Shown here one piece after another: positions 8,529-44,102 of a stretch of DNA of 44,435 nucleotides. The stretch is from a virus. Under the pieces are notes generated by a model, which saw only the letters and a program-made list of their open reading frames with translations, was not told where the DNA came from and did no database searches. The number at the start of each line of letters is the position of its first letter. The first letter of the stretch is position 1. Both the position numbers and the translations under genes were made by a program. The stretch spans positions 1 through 44,435 of IMG/VR virus record IMGVR_UViG_3300037502_000991; one strand, 5' to 3'.

Positions 8529-8770
8529 TAGAGAGTCCTCACCGCGTAGGTGTTGGAGATGTAGTCCATCGCAAAGCCTTGAGGCTCCGCACCAATGAGA
8601 TCAAGCGCATCGAGCCTTCTCAAGGCATATGAATCAGTTAAGAAGTCAATCGCGAAGCCGTTGTCTTCCGTTCCGAGAAGGTAAATCGCGCCATTGCCAC
8701 CGGCACCGCCAACGCTCGGCGGGCCGAATGGAGAGCGTATCCCGCTGATAGGCGAGACTAGCTTACGCAT
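8528..8770 (-). CDS. Small virion-region protein with repeated AIDF motif
   Basis: 80 residues from ATG 8770 (MRKLVSPISGIRSPFG), chosen because it overlaps the upstream stop by only 8 nt. The C-terminal half contains two copies of a 14-residue motif: AIDFLTDSYALRRL and AMDYISNTYAVRTL. A third related copy (AIDFMLDEYVVKM) ends the protein at 32759-32968. The function is unknown; it lies between a decoration-like gene and the spike-fibre gene. Confidence 0.6.
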   Translation of the reverse strand: MRKLVSPISGIRSPFGPPSVGGAGGNGAIYLLGTEDNGFAIDFLTDSYALRRLDALDLIGAEPQGFAMDYISNTYAVRTL

Positions 8771-9047
8771 GAGACACAACCACCGGAACGATTTCCGTGG
8801 CGTAGGCATAAACTCGATTAGCTCCGCTCAAGCCGGGAAACAAATCAGAAAGGAGCGTGTTGCGCTCACCCTGGCCAGGATTATAGCGAATAGAACCCGC
8901 CGTGCTCGTTGGCGTCACCGCGCCGACCGTGGCCTTGATAAGGATGTGATTGGAACCGACGTTCTGAAACGTGATTGCTGGCACGTTTGCGTCGGTAAGC
9001 TGAACCCACGCATTAGCCGTGGTGTTGATCGTCGTATTCTGTGGCAT
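8763..9047 (-). CDS. Small virion protein, decoration-like
   Basis: 94 residues, Thr/Asn-rich and beta-predicted (MPQNTTINTTANAWVQLTDA, then VGSNHILIKATVGAV). No charged helical segment, no TM. Such small beta proteins after the major capsid gene are often capsid-decorating or fibre-base proteins. The family is not recognised, so the role is inferred from position and composition. Confidence 0.6.
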   Translation of the reverse strand: MPQNTTINTTANAWVQLTDANVPAITFQNVGSNHILIKATVGAVTPTSTAGSIRYNPGQGERNTLLSDLFPGLSGANRVYAYATEIVPVVVSHA

Positions 9048-9107
9048 TTCGAACTCCGTTCATTTCGGATGGTAGGGCGACCCCAATGGAGCCGCCCCTT
9101 AGAGTCG

Positions 9108-9551
9108 TTAGGTAGCAGCCACCGAGGAACCGACGAAAGTCGCCGGGGCCTGAGCGTCGTGGCTCACGATGGCATAGACGGTCACGGAAGCATTGGTGCC
9201 CGTGGTGCCCACGCCATTGAGGCGCAGATACCGCTTGGCACCGCGATAGCCCACCGCGCCGATGCACTTGTTGTCATCGGTATCCGCCGTCACGGAAAGA
9301 GCAAACGTGCCATCTGTGGTATCGGCGGCGACAAGAGCCGAAGCCCCGGAAGCCGCAGTCGTGTCCGAGTGCTGGGCCGTGAAGGTGAAGCCCGCCGTAT
9401 CGCCAGCATCCGTCACCGTGTTCGTATGAAGAACGATGGCGGCGCTATCGAAGCCACGGGTATCAACCCAAGCGGAGGCTCCCGGCGTGGTGCCGGACAG
9501 GGTAATGGCCCCCAGATGAACGATCTGGATATTAGACTTGAGGTCACGCAT
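9108..9551 (-). CDS. Decoration-like capsid-region protein
   Basis: 147 residues, Ala/Thr-rich with alternating beta pattern: MRDLKSNIQIVHLGAITLSG, then ASAWVDTRGFDSAAIVLHTN, GFTFTAQHSDTTAA and a final VTVYAIVSHDAQAP. I recall similar proteins next to HK97-type capsid genes, where they are annotated as head or decoration proteins. It follows the capsid gene after a strong hairpin. Assigned by position and fold-like pattern only. Confidence 0.6.
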   Translation of the reverse strand: MRDLKSNIQIVHLGAITLSGTTPGASAWVDTRGFDSAAIVLHTNTVTDAGDTAGFTFTAQHSDTTAASGASALVAADTTDGTFALSVTADTDDNKCIGAVGYRGAKRYLRLNGVGTTGTNASVTVYAIVSHDAQAPATFVGSSVAAT

Positions 9552-9583
9552 TGATTGAGTTCCTTATGCGCTTGATTGAGGAA

Positions 9584-10907: not shown

Positions 10908-12030
10908 TGAATACACCTTTGAGTTTTGTCAGCTTTTCCGTGAGGGTATCAAGCCCCTCGGTTACTGCCACTTCCTCGCCAGCGTCTCGCTGTTTCAGTA
11001 GGGCCTTGAATCCGTGGAGGGTAAGAGCCACGGCCTCTTTGCGAGAGTATCCTGCATCACGCAGGAACTTCTCAAAATCGCGTTCTGTGTGGATGGATTC
11101 CGCACTCTTAACGTTCGTCACCTTGGCATCGGGAAGCATCGGGAAGGTGACTAGGGAGATTTCGAACAGATCAAGCTCCATGAGCTTGCGGACCCGACCA
11201 TCACCTTCCATCGTGGCCTCGACGGTGCGATAGCCGATGGACATGGAGTCGATAGCCCCGGCGCGAAGAAGCGCCATAGCCTCGCGGCCCTTCTCGACTT
11301 CCTTAAGCAAGCGGCCACGGACAAAGAGGCCGCGTTCGTCTTCATAGATTTCATCCCAGACCCCGATGGGCTGAGACATATCGTGCTGCCAAAGCATCTT
11401 GACCTTGCGGGCACCGAGCGATTTGCGGAAGGCACCGCGCTCGACCACATCCATGCCTTGATCGACTACGCCGAAGACGGAGGCATATCCTTCAAAGACG
11501 CCATCCTGATCAGGCTCTCGCTTGAGGGTGAGCGAGAAATTCTTGTGCTGGATTGATTCGTCCATGAACTTGTCGCCTTCATTGGAGCTTTCGCGGTCAA
11601 CGATCTTGTTCGCCCATGACTTGCCCGGATCACCGCCCCACAAGGCCCAGGCTATGCGCCCTGCGGAAGGGTATCCATCTTCACCGGGAGACCATCCTTG
11701 GCCTTGCTTGTCTACTTCGTGGCGGGCGAAATAAGACTTCATCCGCTTAACGGTATCGAGCGAGAGATTACGGCGGTTCTTAATGTCGCGTGCGCGTGCA
11801 ACTCCGATCTCGGTGCCGCCACGGCCAAACTCTTCGCGCCATGCAAGGCCGCGCTCGGCTTCGCGTGCCATAGCCTCGGTCGGTGAGAATCCGTCTGCCT
11901 TGCCTTCCCACTTGGAAATGCACACGGCATATCGCTGATCTTCATCAGGAAAATCGGCCATAGCTTCCTCGTCGCTCATGCAACGGGAGAGAAATTCGTC
12001 TTCGCTTTCGGTCGGACCGGGGCTAGGCAT
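10870..12030 (-). CDS. Prohead protease (S78 family) with N-terminal extension
   Basis: 386 residues. Residues 1-150 are an extension with the SWEG-like region (YAVCISKWEGKADGF) and a helical segment (NRRNLSLDTVKRMKSYFARH) seen in some phage protease fusions. The protease proper begins about residue 160 (FEGYASVFGVVDQGMDVVER), with the catalytic His in LWQHDMSQPIG and Ser in AIDSMSIGYR. It would cleave capsid delta domains and itself during prohead maturation. The C-terminus (EGLDTLTEKLTKLKGV) is coiled-coil-like. Encoded between the MuF-like gene and the capsid gene, the expected order. Confidence 0.92.
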   Translation of the reverse strand: MPSPGPTESEDEFLSRCMSDEEAMADFPDEDQRYAVCISKWEGKADGFSPTEAMAREAERGLAWREEFGRGGTEIGVARARDIKNRRNLSLDTVKRMKSYFARHEVDKQGQGWSPGEDGYPSAGRIAWALWGGDPGKSWANKIVDRESSNEGDKFMDESIQHKNFSLTLKREPDQDGVFEGYASVFGVVDQGMDVVERGAFRKSLGARKVKMLWQHDMSQPIGVWDEIYEDERGLFVRGRLLKEVEKGREAMALLRAGAIDSMSIGYRTVEATMEGDGRVRKLMELDLFEISLVTFPMLPDAKVTNVKSAESIHTERDFEKFLRDAGYSRKEAVALTLHGFKALLKQRDAGEEVAVTEGLDTLTEKLTKLKGVFNVRGNQEGNRRG

Positions 12031-12059
12031 GATGGCAATATATCATTGGTTGATGGAAA

Positions 12060-13748
12060 TCACAACATGGCCTCGAAGGCTTCTTCGTCAATGATGTAAC
12101 CGAGCGCGCACCGGCAATTATGATTGACTATGCCGTTGCTTATTAGTAGTCCTGTATCGCTCTCAAAATTATACACAGGACCATCATAATGGAACGTCTC
12201 GATAGAAGTGCATTCAAGAAGCTCGAAGGCCCTGTTGCTGTTAGATGGAAGGCAATTCGAGTTAGCAATTACGCTTTCGCCAAAGAACTGTTCGATACTG
12301 GGCATACCGTCAACAGCATCGCTCAAAAACTCAATCTTTCTAGGGCTATGGTTTATACCATTTTTGAAGAGCTTGGCCTTCCGCGTTTGAGTGTTTCCGA
12401 AGGCAACAAGAGGTCCGCTGCCTTGATGACTGAAAGTCAACGCATTGCCAGAGCCAGAAATGCTCATGAAGCAATCCGCAAAATCGGCAGAAATAGAATT
12501 GCTCAATCCGAGCATTCTGTTCGCCAGCAATCGACCGGAAACTATATCGGCATGGGTGAATCCGAATTGGCCGAAAAGTTGATTGCCAAAGGTTTTCATC
12601 CGATCCCGCAAGCTGCCGTTGAAGGATACAATATCGACTTGCTCTGTGACCACCTCGCCGTGGAAGTTCACAACTACACCACTCGACCCAGCGACAAGAC
12701 GCAAATTCTTTCCAGAATCATAAAGCTCTTGTGCGCTAATGTATCCATCATTTACGTCAGAACTGGACCGCATTTCCCGGTCATTAGCGATGCGGCTGTG
12801 AATCAGATTGTCGCCTTTTACGATCTTACCAGCGGCAACCCATCCTCTATCGGTAAGTATCGGGTGATTAGGGGTGACGGTCAAATTGATTGGACCGCCG
12901 AAAGACATCTTTATGAGCTGGCCGATATAGTTTCGGCGTATGCCGCGCTTAAGGCCAGCAGTTAAAATCATAGTGTCAGGATGGAAACAATTGATGACCT
13001 CATCCGCAGCCCCGGCGGGGTCGCCCGGATAATGCAAATCGGAATCGCCCACGCGGAAGGTGTCATCCATTCCAACGGTGTCACCATCAGCCGCGCGGTG
13101 TGTGTCGCGGGTGCGGTCATCTGCGGTTGCAAGCCATTGTTTTTTCATGGGCAATCCGGTTTGCTTGGCCGCTTCTTGTGAACCGAAATTGGCCGCGCCA
13201 TGTGTCTCGGTGCGGGCGATCATATTTGCGCGGTAGTCGGCTATTTGCGGAACAAGATCGAGGATATAATTGGCGGTGCCGCGCTGACCGAGGCCATCCT
13301 CGTAGCCTTTGCGAACAGCGCGGATGACTTGATCGCGGGTCGTGTCGGTCACTTCCGTGATGCGGCGACGGATGGCCTCTTGCTCAATATAGCGCAACGC
13401 AAGGCGGCGCATGATTTGGGCGAAGCTCTCTTTGGTTTCCTTTGTCTCAAGATCGAGACCACGCGATTTGCCTTGCTCATAAACGCGAGAGCCAAAGGTG
13501 GTGACGGAAGCCAGTGCCATTTGTTGATATGTCGCGGCGATGCGGTCATAGAACCCGCGCGGCAAGACAACATTGCCGGTCTGTTCCCAATGGCTCACCA
13601 TCTCGCGCATGGCGGCTTCTAGTTCGCTCTTGAGACGGCCACGAAATTGAATCGTCAGCCGATCAAGCAATGCGCCTTGGCGGCGCACTTCCCGGCGCGG
13701 GTTTTGGTCAATGAGCCTTCGTGCCATATGCCAGCGCCTTGATGTCAT
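12060..13748 (-). CDS. MuF-like head morphogenesis protein interrupted by an intein
   Basis: 562 codons. Residues 1-253 are the N-extein: a helical region followed by the MuF/SPP1 gp7-type domain (RTETHGAANFGSQEAAKQTG, DRTRDTHRAADGDTVGMDD, LHYPGDPAGAADEVIN). Residues 254-544 are the intein and 545-562 the C-extein (CRCALGYIIDEEAFEAML). Joining the exteins restores the conserved INCRC motif and gives a 271-residue protein. MuF-type proteins are minor capsid components linked to the portal. The gene overlaps the portal gene; an internal ATG at 13727 shortens the overlap to 20 nt and is an alternative start. Splicing is predicted from motifs and not shown. Confidence 0.92.
   Translation of the reverse strand: MTSRRWHMARRLIDQNPRREVRRQGALLDRLTIQFRGRLKSELEAAMREMVSHWEQTGNVVLPRGFYDRIAATYQQMALASVTTFGSRVYEQGKSRGLDLETKETKESFAQIMRRLALRYIEQEAIRRRITEVTDTTRDQVIRAVRKGYEDGLGQRGTANYILDLVPQIADYRANMIARTETHGAANFGSQEAAKQTGLPMKKQWLATADDRTRDTHRAADGDTVGMDDTFRVGDSDLHYPGDPAGAADEVINCFHPDTMILTAGLKRGIRRNYIGQLIKMSFGGPINLTVTPNHPILTDRGWVAAGKIVKGDNLIHSRIANDREMRSSSDVNDGYISAQELYDSGKNLRLVAGSSGVVVNFHGEVVTEQVDIVSFNGSLRDRMKTFGNQLFGQFGFTHADIVSGRLLANRMLGLSNSISADFADCFMSISGSGNALTFSHQGSGPLVAFGNTQTRKAKLFKNGINHSPRKIEFLSDAVDGMPSIEQFFGESVIANSNCLPSNSNRAFELLECTSIETFHYDGPVYNFESDTGLLISNGIVNHNCRCALGYIIDEEAFEAML
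12117..12989 (-). other. Intein (Hint splicing element) inserted at INCRC
   Basis: 291 codons in frame. It starts with Cys (CFHPDTMILT, block A), has block B with TPNH at intein residues 39-42 followed by PILTDRGWVAAGKI, and ends with blocks F and G (FHYDGPVYNF at 266-275, LLISNGIVNHN at 281-291). The +1 residue is Cys. All class 1 splicing residues are present: Cys1, block-B Thr and His, penultimate His290, Asn291, Cys+1. The central ~190 residues contain no LAGLIDADG or HNH nuclease on this strand; instead the opposite strand encodes a nuclease-like protein covering intein residues 9-267. A mini-intein needs only ~130-150 residues, so the extra length fits the embedded antisense gene or a large Hint variant. 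Confidence 0.93.
12189..12965 (+). CDS. Putative homing endonuclease encoded antisense inside the intein
   Basis: 258 residues on the strand opposite the intein, entirely inside it. Residues 31-66 form a helix-turn-helix (TGHTVNSIAQKLNLSRAMVY). Residues about 118-192 look like a Vsr/PD-(D/E)XK-type nuclease: E124 and E126 in GMGESELAEKL, then GYNID with D150, LAVEVH with E159 and H161, and the strand VSIIYV (185-190). The C-terminal part has YRVIRGDG (224-231), a motif I recall from phage nucleases of this kind. An AGGA at 12177-12180 stands 8 nt before the ATG. Codons are in exact register with intein codons. It would cut intein-less MuF alleles; that is inference. No convincing promoter seen. 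Confidence 0.82.
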   Translation: MERLDRSAFKKLEGPVAVRWKAIRVSNYAFAKELFDTGHTVNSIAQKLNLSRAMVYTIFEELGLPRLSVSEGNKRSAALMTESQRIARARNAHEAIRKIGRNRIAQSEHSVRQQSTGNYIGMGESELAEKLIAKGFHPIPQAAVEGYNIDLLCDHLAVEVHNYTTRPSDKTQILSRIIKLLCANVSIIYVRTGPHFPVISDAAVNQIVAFYDLTSGNPSSIGKYRVIRGDGQIDWTAERHLYELADIVSAYAALKASS

Positions 13749-42051: not shown

Positions 42052-42818
42052 CGCGGGATAAACTCCATGATGTCCATGTTGACGGAGACATCGACGGTGC
42101 TGGCCGATACATTGGCAAGGAAGCCGAAGTCGCACAATGGCGGGAAGTAGAGTGGCGGATCGAAGACAACATCAATAAGGCCGGAACTCTGAGGATACTC
42201 GGTCACGAGTAGCATCGATGTATATGGTGCCGCCGTCTCAAGGATATTCTCGCGTTTGTACAGGACGATGTTCGCCTTCTTGTCGGCATCGCTCGAAATG
42301 GTCACGTTGTGAAGTGCGGCACTTCGGTCACGCGGCGTTGTATAAACCGCCATCTCAGTCTTGCCACGGCCTAGTGCGCCATCCGCAATGGTTGCCCAAT
42401 CCTCGCCGCCTGTAGACCTCTCAATCACAATTGTAGAGGCATGTGATCCGGCGGATTGGGTCGCATAGGTGCCAGACTTCGAGACATAGGCATCGAACAA
42501 CCGGATGAATGATGTGGTCGTTGCCGCACTGGCCGAAGCCCCAGCCGTGGCAAGCGCCTCGACTTGCTGGTTGCCATTGGCATCGATCCCTACGAGCGTG
42601 ACCTCTCTGCCGCCGGAACCGTTGGCCGTGTCGTTCGCATTGCCACCTGCCTTGATGCGGAGACTAACCGCCGCATTCGCTTGGGGCGTGCGATAGAAGC
42701 CGGAACGTGTGACAGGCGTAAAGCTGGAACCGATGGAAATATTGCGCCCGAACTTGTTGAACGACCGACAACCCGAAGCCAGCCCGCGCGCAATGTCGAG
42801 ACTGCTGGGATATGTCAT
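42048..42818 (-). CDS. Structural protein, head-tail region
   Basis: 256 residues. SGFYRTPQANAAVSLRIKAG, EVTLVGIDANGNQQVEALAT, then ASTIVIERSTGGEDWATIAD and IDVVFDPPLYFPPLCDFGFL. Beta-rich, no family recognised with certainty. It lies between gp6-like and stopper genes, where an extra neck or decoration protein may occur. Overlap by ATGA with both neighbours. Confidence 0.6.
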   Translation of the reverse strand: MTYPSSLDIARGLASGCRSFNKFGRNISIGSSFTPVTRSGFYRTPQANAAVSLRIKAGGNANDTANGSGGREVTLVGIDANGNQQVEALATAGASASAATTTSFIRLFDAYVSKSGTYATQSAGSHASTIVIERSTGGEDWATIADGALGRGKTEMAVYTTPRDRSAALHNVTISSDADKKANIVLYKRENILETAAPYTSMLLVTEYPQSSGLIDVVFDPPLYFPPLCDFGFLANVSASTVDVSVNMDIMEFIPR

Positions 42819-43495
42819 ATCTTCATGGCCTTATATTGAGCCATAATGACCGAAGCGCCGGATGCGTCATAGGCATCACTTGCATCGCAGTCATCGCCAC
42901 GGTTGCTATAGAGGAAAGCCGCGAGTTGCTTGACGGCCCGCTTCATGGTGCTAGGCACGGCTGCCGCATTGGCATAACCAGCCACATAGATCACTTGAAT
43001 CGCATCATTGGCACGCAAGGCAACCGGCCAAGTCTGGCCGCGCTTGAGGGTCAATCGCCCCGGAGTCTGATAGGTATCAACGTCGAATGTATCGGCAACC
43101 GTGACCACCGTGGCGTTGCTATCTTCATCATAGACCGTGACCGATGTGATAGACACCAACGGCCAACGCGGGACCACAAGGCTTTGAATGGTGCTGGTGC
43201 GGTAAAGTTCCGTGATCGACATCTCGCGCACACCATCCCACCAAGCTTCGCCGCCAGACGGCCAACGGTCGAGCGAAAGCCGCCACGACTGACTGATAAA
43301 GGCAAGGCCCGTCATGTTCTCGATCTCGGTACGTGCATCCGTGATCAAGGCATTAGCCTCCGCATCGGGAAGCTCGGTCGAATCGGTGCGGAGATGGGTG
43401 CGAAGTTCCGCCGCCGTCACCGGCTCGGTAGCGGGTGCCGATGTGAGGACCGAACCACGGAACTGATAAAACGGTACGGCGGCGCGAAGGCTCAT
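42815..43495 (-). CDS. gp6-like head-tail connector
   Basis: 226 residues. EPVTAAELRTHLRTDSTELP (21-40 region), DAEANALITDARTEIENMTG, LDRWPSGGEAWWDG and VPSTMKRAVKQLAAFLYSNR form the HK97 gp6-like connector pattern, the ring below the portal. It overlaps the structural gene by 4 nt. Confidence 0.88.
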   Translation of the reverse strand: MSLRAAVPFYQFRGSVLTSAPATEPVTAAELRTHLRTDSTELPDAEANALITDARTEIENMTGLAFISQSWRLSLDRWPSGGEAWWDGVREMSITELYRTSTIQSLVVPRWPLVSITSVTVYDEDSNATVVTVADTFDVDTYQTPGRLTLKRGQTWPVALRANDAIQVIYVAGYANAAAVPSTMKRAVKQLAAFLYSNRGDDCDASDAYDASGASVIMAQYKAMKI

Positions 43496-43498
43496 GGA

Positions 43499-43708
43499 TT
43501 AGCCCTTCTTGGTTTTCTTCTTGGCGGGGGCTTCGGCCTTTGCTTCGACCTTTGCTTCAAGAGGCGGGGCTTCTGCAATTTCGATAGCGGCACCTTCTGC
43601 CATTGCCAGCGTTGCGAGTTCGCCTTCCAGGATCGTGTTCATTTCAAAGCGCACCACCGTATGGCCTTCCGGCGCACACGTGAACGGGCGAATAAGTTTA
43701 ACCTTCAT
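43499..43708 (-). CDS. Small head-region protein with Lys-rich tail
   Basis: 69 residues (MKVKLIRPFTCAPEGHTVVR). The end is an Ala/Glu/Lys run (EAKVEAKAEAPAKKKTKKG). Short proteins of this kind often lie between capsid and connector genes. Function unknown. No overlap with the connector gene (3 nt gap). Confidence 0.6.
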   Translation of the reverse strand: MKVKLIRPFTCAPEGHTVVRFEMNTILEGELATLAMAEGAAIEIAEAPPLEAKVEAKAEAPAKKKTKKG

Positions 43709-43709
43709 T

Positions 43710-44102
43710 TCATTCCTCCGTGGTTACGGGAGTATAGTAGCTCATCCCCCCCGCCCAGATGCGCCGGGGGTTGTCTACGGAAGCGGGATCAACCCACTCG
43801 ACGCCTTCGCCACCTTGAGCCAGCACGGCAGGATCGTGGCCCTGCTGCACGTAGTCCTCGGGCACCGGATCGGGCATGGGTCCGGCGATCTGCGTGAGGC
43901 GGACGTTCACGTGGAAGTGTTCATCCACGACAGCGGGGGACACCACATCGCCCGTCTCGGGGTCAATGACAGCGGGGGTTGTGACTATCTGGCCTATACA
44001 GTCGATATAACAGCCCAGAGGCTGCCCGTCAGAAGTGAGGCTGACGATGGCTGCATAGGCATCCCATGCTGCCTTGTCGGTGGCGCGGTACATCAGGTCC
44101 AT
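43710..44102 (-). CDS. Conserved phage protein within the 695-bp repeat (copy 2)
   Basis: 130 residues, nearly identical to the product of 5216-5599, with a different last ~7 residues. It follows the partial HNH gene by 1 nt overlap and is followed by the 69-residue gene and connectors, so this copy is in the canonical capsid-to-connector context. Confidence 0.6.
   Translation of the reverse strand: MDLMYRATDKAAWDAYAAIVSLTSDGQPLGCYIDCIGQIVTTPAVIDPETGDVVSPAVVDEHFHVNVRLTQIAGPMPDPVPEDYVQQGHDPAVLAQGGEGVEWVDPASVDNPRRIWAGGMSYYTPVTTEE

Follow-up and report, generated by a model that had tools for sequence, protein, structure and literature searches.

The 44,435-base virus record IMGVR_UViG_3300037502_000991, hereafter called the window, contains a MuF-type minor head protein gene interrupted by an in-frame intein. 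This locus is very probably a mobile intein with a homing endonuclease gene overprinted on its opposite strand in exact codon register. Sequence comparison reveals two overlapping genes under selection, one encoding the intein and the other a homing-endonuclease homolog, which are patchily present at one site. The usual view of inteins places their nuclease in the same chain, as one of its domains. We also consider it probable, if with less assurance, that the locus represents a distinct, widespread and previously undescribed class of mobile element. In this class a splicing domain and a nuclease would lie codon-to-codon on opposite strands, with both frames under simultaneous purifying selection and the ribosome-binding site and start of the nuclease gene placed over a splicing block, and it would have evolved at least twice (with EDxHD and with LAGLIDADG nucleases). 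Features are located in Table 1, while related loci carry labels such as L001, L044 and L077.

An intein and an antisense nuclease in one stretch of DNA

The product of the interrupted gene matched the Pfam family Phage_Mu_F (E=8e-12) and the head morphogenesis family phrog_2468 (1e-47). Its intein of 291 residues splits the conserved INCRC motif after AAT (Asn) and before TGC (Cys), beginning with CFHPDT and ending with NGIVNHN before CRC. It possesses the residues of a class-1 intein, namely C1, TPNH as the TxxH of block B, and HN followed by C; across 17 intein sequences C1, T39, N41, H42 and N291 were invariant. Matches to the intein families TIGR01445 and PF14890 were weak, while phrog_15127 was matched at 2e-28. 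AlphaFold2 modelled residues 1-70 and about 251-291 confidently, with a predicted local distance difference test score (pLDDT) mostly between 73 and 94 in the splicing halves. The model has a Hint fold, as the top Foldseek matches were all inteins, the best being the splicing domain of the M. tuberculosis RecA intein (probability 1.00). Many relatives (L071-L076, L081-L099 and others) have Ser, Arg or Lys in place of His as the penultimate residue of the intein.

A preliminary description of the window, made from its letters alone, had seen no nuclease on the intein strand. Family searches of the MuF and intein sense frame (Pfam, PHROG, TIGR) likewise found no nuclease family, and the window intein lacks the in-frame nuclease domain of a nuclease-containing intein. 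Because residues 125-252 are predicted to be disordered and belong to no nuclease family, the middle of the intein (~130-180 residues) would thus largely be the reverse side of the nuclease gene, passively translated, with little role beyond staying open; this agrees with the weak selection on the sense frame reported below. Sense-strand "motifs" such as D(F/L)HGD...VxIV mirror the nuclease active site, YNxD...VAVE, and are not intein motifs, the catalytic Glu codon (GAA or GAG) reading as Phe or Leu in the intein frame.

The antisense protein of the window, searched alone, matched HTH_7 at E=0.003 and MTES_1575 at E=0.013. A profile of its relatives matched the PDB entry 3R3P (I-Bth0305I, an EDxHD homing endonuclease annotated there as Mobile intron protein) at E=5.4e-7 over profile positions 152-236, as well as 3HRL at E=5e-6. 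Family members matched helix-turn-helix families, REase_MTES_1575 (14 of 26), DUF559 and Vsr. The AlphaFold2 model (pLDDT 81.7) has a Vsr-like order of elements and a poorly ordered C-terminal tail; Foldseek placed 3R3P, the I-Bth0305I catalytic domain, first (probability 1.00, template modelling (TM) score by target 0.62) and gave 3HRL a probability of 0.97 and a TM score by target of 0.71. Among 26 sequences Y147, N148, D150, A157, V158 and E159 were invariant and E124 nearly so. The comparison with the EDxHD motif covers the conserved E124, D150 and E159. By homology, the antisense protein is most plausibly a homing endonuclease of helix-turn-helix-EDxHD type. The helix-turn-helix and PD-(D/E)XK assignments of the preliminary description, weak on the single sequence, are thus strong by family profile and fold, the two checks it had proposed, and I-Bth0305I was the best match in both. 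Its label of a Vsr-like core held as regards PD-(D/E)XK and required refinement otherwise, the closest characterised enzyme being the EDxHD I-Bth0305I, with Vsr, DUF559 and MTES_1575 as wider kin. Reading frame, MuF gene, intein, motifs and AGGA all lie where it had placed them.

The start signals of the nuclease gene also fall within the splicing domain. Most relatives have a Shine-Dalgarno-like element at a similar position, e.g. GGAGGTTATAAACATG, whose complement encodes block F (GHVYNLQ). The nuclease start codon faces His in relatives (ATG to CAT, GTG to CAC) and Gln in one group (TTG to CAA, L096). In the window it lies a few codons further in, opposite FHYDG, with AGGA opposite the GP of GPVYN.

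Table 1. Positions of the features discussed, in window coordinates unless a locus label is given.
Feature	Position	Strand	Remarks
MuF-type minor head protein gene with in-frame intein	12060-13748	-	562 aa
N-extein of the MuF gene	12990-13748	-	
C-extein of the MuF gene	12060-12116	-	CRCALGYIIDEEAFEAML
Class-1-type intein	12117-12989	-	291 aa; Cys1 at start, His-Asn at end, then Cys+1
Intein block B, TPNHP	12861-12875	-	conserved in intein alignment; nuclease YRVIRG on opposite strand
Intein block F, GPVYNFE	12162-12182	-	nuclease Shine-Dalgarno on opposite strand
Predicted disordered "shadow" of nuclease gene	12234-12617	-	intein residues 125-252; AlphaFold2 pLDDT <50
Antisense homing endonuclease gene (by homology)	12189-12965	+	258 aa, ATG start; helix-turn-helix region, then EDxHD/Vsr-like PD-(D/E)XK core
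AGGA, putative ribosome-binding site	12177-12180	+	8 nt before ATG at 12189
Helix-turn-helix	12279-12368	+	residues 31-60; HTH_7; helices H28-36, H41-48, H52-62
Nuclease core	12552-12836	+	residues 122-216; helix-strand-strand-strand-helix-strand-helix
Putative catalytic residue E124	12558-12560	+	
Putative catalytic residue D150	12636-12638	+	
Putative catalytic residue E159	12663-12665	+	
Antisense LAGLIDADG-type nuclease, Gordonia phage Lennon	L128:2501-3091	-	also L132

Selection on the two frames

Codon boundaries of the intein and the antisense frame coincide, sense position 3 being nuclease position 1 and vice versa, and neither frame contains a stop, while the remaining two sense frames of the intein contain 14 each. 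The codons therefore face each other one to one, as originally described. Openness by length alone is weak evidence, a caution already raised in the preliminary description: given the synonymous usage of its own extein, the window intein would avoid TTA, CTA and TCA with a chance of ~10^-3.9, and openness is far less telling in GC-rich relatives. Two further long, codon-aligned antisense frames in the window (8694-9554 and 42812-43897, both on the plus strand) matched no Pfam family and were treated as chance frames.

An immediate concern is whether the antisense frame is a by-product, given that the complement of conserved sense codons looks conserved and stays open. Some antisense motifs are indeed forced by the sense protein, and the open length in the window carries a P of only about 10^-4. 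The pattern of substitutions, however, argues otherwise. Across the 21 close pairs tabulated, nuclease codon position 3 was without exception the one most often substituted within the overlap, and sense position 3 the one most often substituted in the adjacent exteins. Single-base codon changes were then classified as antisense-silent or sense-silent in nine sequence-disjoint pairs, of which two derive from one enterobacterial clade and may share branches. In the linker, opposite the nuclease core, antisense-silent changes outnumbered sense-silent ones by 308 to 77 against an expected 1:1 (P=2e-33), sparing the antisense protein at the sense protein's cost. The exteins gave 41:402, so only the sense frame is protected there. 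The N-terminal splicing part gave 35:56, and its ratios akin to nonsynonymous over synonymous substitution rates (dN/dS) were highly significant in both frames (nuclease 0.16, intein 0.10); these splicing blocks are true dual coding, with purifying selection on both frames. A finer regional split of the substitution classes returned the same pattern, and the nearest relative, L044, differs from the window copy by 46 antisense-silent and 19 sense-silent changes.

A control that preserves the sense protein agrees with these counts. We shuffled the sense codons synonymously 300 times and scored the antisense frame with a leave-one-out profile excluding the window; the actual frame scored 143.8 bits, as opposed to 54.9 ± 11.5 for the shuffles (maximum 91.2). 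The outcome was alike in five other families. The remaining ~55 bits are imposed by the sense protein alone, YRVIRG opposite TPNHP being an example. The profile members had been picked up through their antisense similarity to the window, a dependence which leaves the pair tests without the window unaffected. Moreover, the same protein occurs free-standing in Acinetobacter phage IME285, where the opposite frames contain 12, 10 and 23 stops, and the antisense profile and fold match a homing nuclease. The mirror explanation was rejected on the codon-position test and the shuffle control, and we regard it as extremely improbable. Selection on both frames, together with profile and fold, instead supports the proposal that an intein and its nuclease occupy the two strands of one stretch of DNA, and supplies the dN/dS comparison that the preliminary description had suggested.

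Relatives, empty sites and a second nuclease type

Searches by tblastn with the antisense protein retrieved 107 phage records (best E 3e-20), in most of which the match faces an annotated head gene, and a search with the sense intein found 134 records. A degenerate pattern search of viral contigs with the window antisense protein alone gave no matches; pattern searches succeeded with subfamily alignments. A profile from ten antisense relatives, plus further fetched records, led to 61 loci with 44 distinct core sequences. These span several bacterial phyla and include phages or prophages of Salmonella, Klebsiella, Cronobacter, Edwardsiella, Vibrio, Pseudomonas, Aggregatibacter, Idiomarina relatives, Gordonia and Helicobacter, as well as Streptomyces and Chloroflexota plasmid records and metagenomic viruses. 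At 60 of the 61 loci the nuclease homolog lies antisense and in the same register opposite an intein-bearing protein, with no stops in both frames and up to 47 in others. Homologous inteins with an opposite strand broken by stops, which the preliminary description had named as telling against its proposal, were thus not encountered among these 60. The nested element it had described therefore stands, though not as the single case it was taken for, being a widespread family accompanied by a second, LAGLIDADG type at the same site.

The exception is the IME285 homolog (L077:455-1348, plus strand), which converges, with an overlap of a few bases, on an uninterrupted, intein-less MuF gene. Its C-terminal tail is still similar to the intein-embedded versions, and it is the only nuclease annotated as a gene in the fetched records. 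Two loci differ in the position of the element. In virus Rctr197k (L130:2165-3517, plus strand), a dCMP deaminase gene (Pfam 5e-11) carries an intein of the same kind with an antisense nuclease; the gene's label, "putative head morphogenesis protein", seems to come from its intein. Escherichia phage vB-Eco-KMB36 (L129:1805-3775, plus strand) has an intein with an antisense nuclease at another MuF position, upstream of the usual INCRC-type site.

Empty alleles of the site are found close to occupied ones. When joined, the window exteins match L001, an intein-less allele with a 95% identical protein, over 1198 bp at 91.7% identity and with no gap, which marks the intein as a precise in-frame insertion. 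Many Gordonia phages have MuF proteins 96-99% identical over 134 aa without the insert, and in near-identical Gordonia MuF genes the same site is either empty or occupied by one of two divergent EDxHD types or by a LAGLIDADG type.

The last of these occurs in six Gordonia phages (Lennon, Sitar, Nordenberg, Thing3, SchottB and Barsten), whose intein at the identical site faces a different codon-aligned antisense protein containing ...YVAAFIDGEG...DYLVIKRHHADLL...; the Lennon locus is annotated for head morphogenesis only. Scanned against Pfam, the Lennon protein showed no more than a marginal similarity to LAGLIDADG_3 (0.26). We assign it to the LAGLIDADG type because of its tblastn relatives and alignment: it aligns with the free-standing phage proteins L133 and L134, with which it has the DGEG and YLxIK motifs in common, and the free-standing proteins match LAGLIDADG_1 at E=2e-6 (L134, PF00961) and 0.003. 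Between two Gordonia LAGLIDADG inteins, the nuclease region showed 33 antisense-silent changes versus 1 sense-silent change (P=4e-9), while the extein of the same two loci showed 2 and 40, respectively. Since this nuclease is unrelated to the EDxHD type and lies in the same antisense layout, the arrangement has arisen at least twice.

Proposed mechanism, alternatives and known systems

The minus strand encodes a head protein precursor with a Hint domain formed by some 70 residues at the start and some 40 at the end of the intein. We suggest that the intein would splice out of this precursor to leave a normal MuF protein, such that the insert would be tolerated by the phage. From the plus strand, a ribosome-binding site and ATG of its own, opposite block F, would direct expression of the helix-turn-helix and EDxHD/Vsr-like nuclease. 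This enzyme would bind and cut intein-less MuF genes near the INCRC codons, and recombination repair would copy in the DNA of intein and nuclease together. As the same base pairs encode both, splicing domain and nuclease would be inherited as one unit.

Several points weigh against this account. Splicing, antisense expression, cleavage of empty alleles and copying by recombination are steps that we infer. The single-sequence family matches of the antisense protein fall under curated thresholds, and the Foldseek E-value of its model to 3R3P is only 0.017. Loci were mostly retrieved through antisense similarity, and inteins with a decayed nuclease may consequently be under-sampled. In relatives without the penultimate His, splicing may be slower and its chemistry different. 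Finally, no plus-strand promoter above chance was detected upstream of the nuclease gene (11500-12188). This last result, along with the poorly ordered nuclease tail, could indicate a fossil, i.e. a genuine nuclease gene no longer expressed or active within a fixed intein. Catalytic residues, start codon and Shine-Dalgarno element are nevertheless all intact in the window, the comparison with L044 reveals antisense constraint, and an intein-less allele as similar as L001 is expected of a recent gain; we therefore consider a fossil unlikely. An expressed antisense protein might alternatively have a role other than homing, for example as a regulator or as a nuclease directed at competitor phages that merely sits in the intein. 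Helix-turn-helix domains are prominent in the family, and nucleases of the Vsr/DUF559 type have further roles in repair and defence. Such a role is very unlikely in our estimation, as the protein is best matched by a homing endonuclease, the intein that houses its gene is patchy at a single site in near-identical genes, the free-standing copy adjoins the same target gene, and a homologous element is present in a dCMP deaminase gene.

The mobile intein with an overprinted nuclease that we favour resembles several known systems without coinciding with any of them. With canonical large inteins (Hint plus in-frame LAGLIDADG or HNH) it has in common blocks A, B, F and G, insertion at a conserved motif, empty alleles and a nuclease within the intein DNA. 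Here, however, the nuclease is a separate protein of the other strand that overlaps the splicing domain, and the in-frame insert is predicted to be disordered. Dassa et al. in 2009 reportedly described fractured genes and split inteins with an EDxHD-type homing endonuclease gene between the halves; the combination of EDxHD nuclease and intein halves would be shared, whereas here the gene overlaps one continuous intein. EDxHD enzymes such as I-Bth0305I share the core profile and fold match, the E...D...E positions and a multi-domain build with DNA-binding modules, but I-Bth0305I was described with mobile group I introns rather than in antisense overlap with an intein. EDxHD is one of six homing endonuclease families (PMC3943268). 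Antisense homing endonuclease genes are known from nuclear group I introns (I-DsqI and related; PMC9548176), likewise on the strand opposite a self-splicing element and its host gene; there the gene occupies a loop insertion of an RNA intron without a second coding frame, while here the same codons are protein-coding on both strands. The ShiLan element, an out-of-frame HNH element without a splicing domain in a phage methylase, also conceals a homing nuclease; in that actinophage gene it occupies a different frame of an in-frame insertion (PMC11855218), as opposed to the opposite strand of a recognisable Hint intein. Inteins in MuF or capsid morphogenesis genes of Salmonella and E. coli phages, the same host gene and kind of element, are noted in passages of three reports, which there mention the intein only and no antisense nuclease (PMC6776784, PMC8425127, PMC11162368). 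An intein with an antisense nuclease was not described anywhere in the literature covered, which did not extend to Gorbalenya 1998 or to a 2025 preprint on non-canonical actinophage inteins (10.1101/2025.01.02.630785) that may overlap with our findings.

In phages of several bacterial phyla, one stretch of DNA thus appears to encode an unrelated protein on each of its two strands for hundreds of bases, a different way of tying a nuclease to a splicing element. It offers a rare and testable case of long antisense overprinting, in which selection can be measured on both frames. Genome annotation misses these antisense nuclease genes, and the codon-aligned opposite frame of inteins should be included when looking for homing genes or hidden antisense genes.
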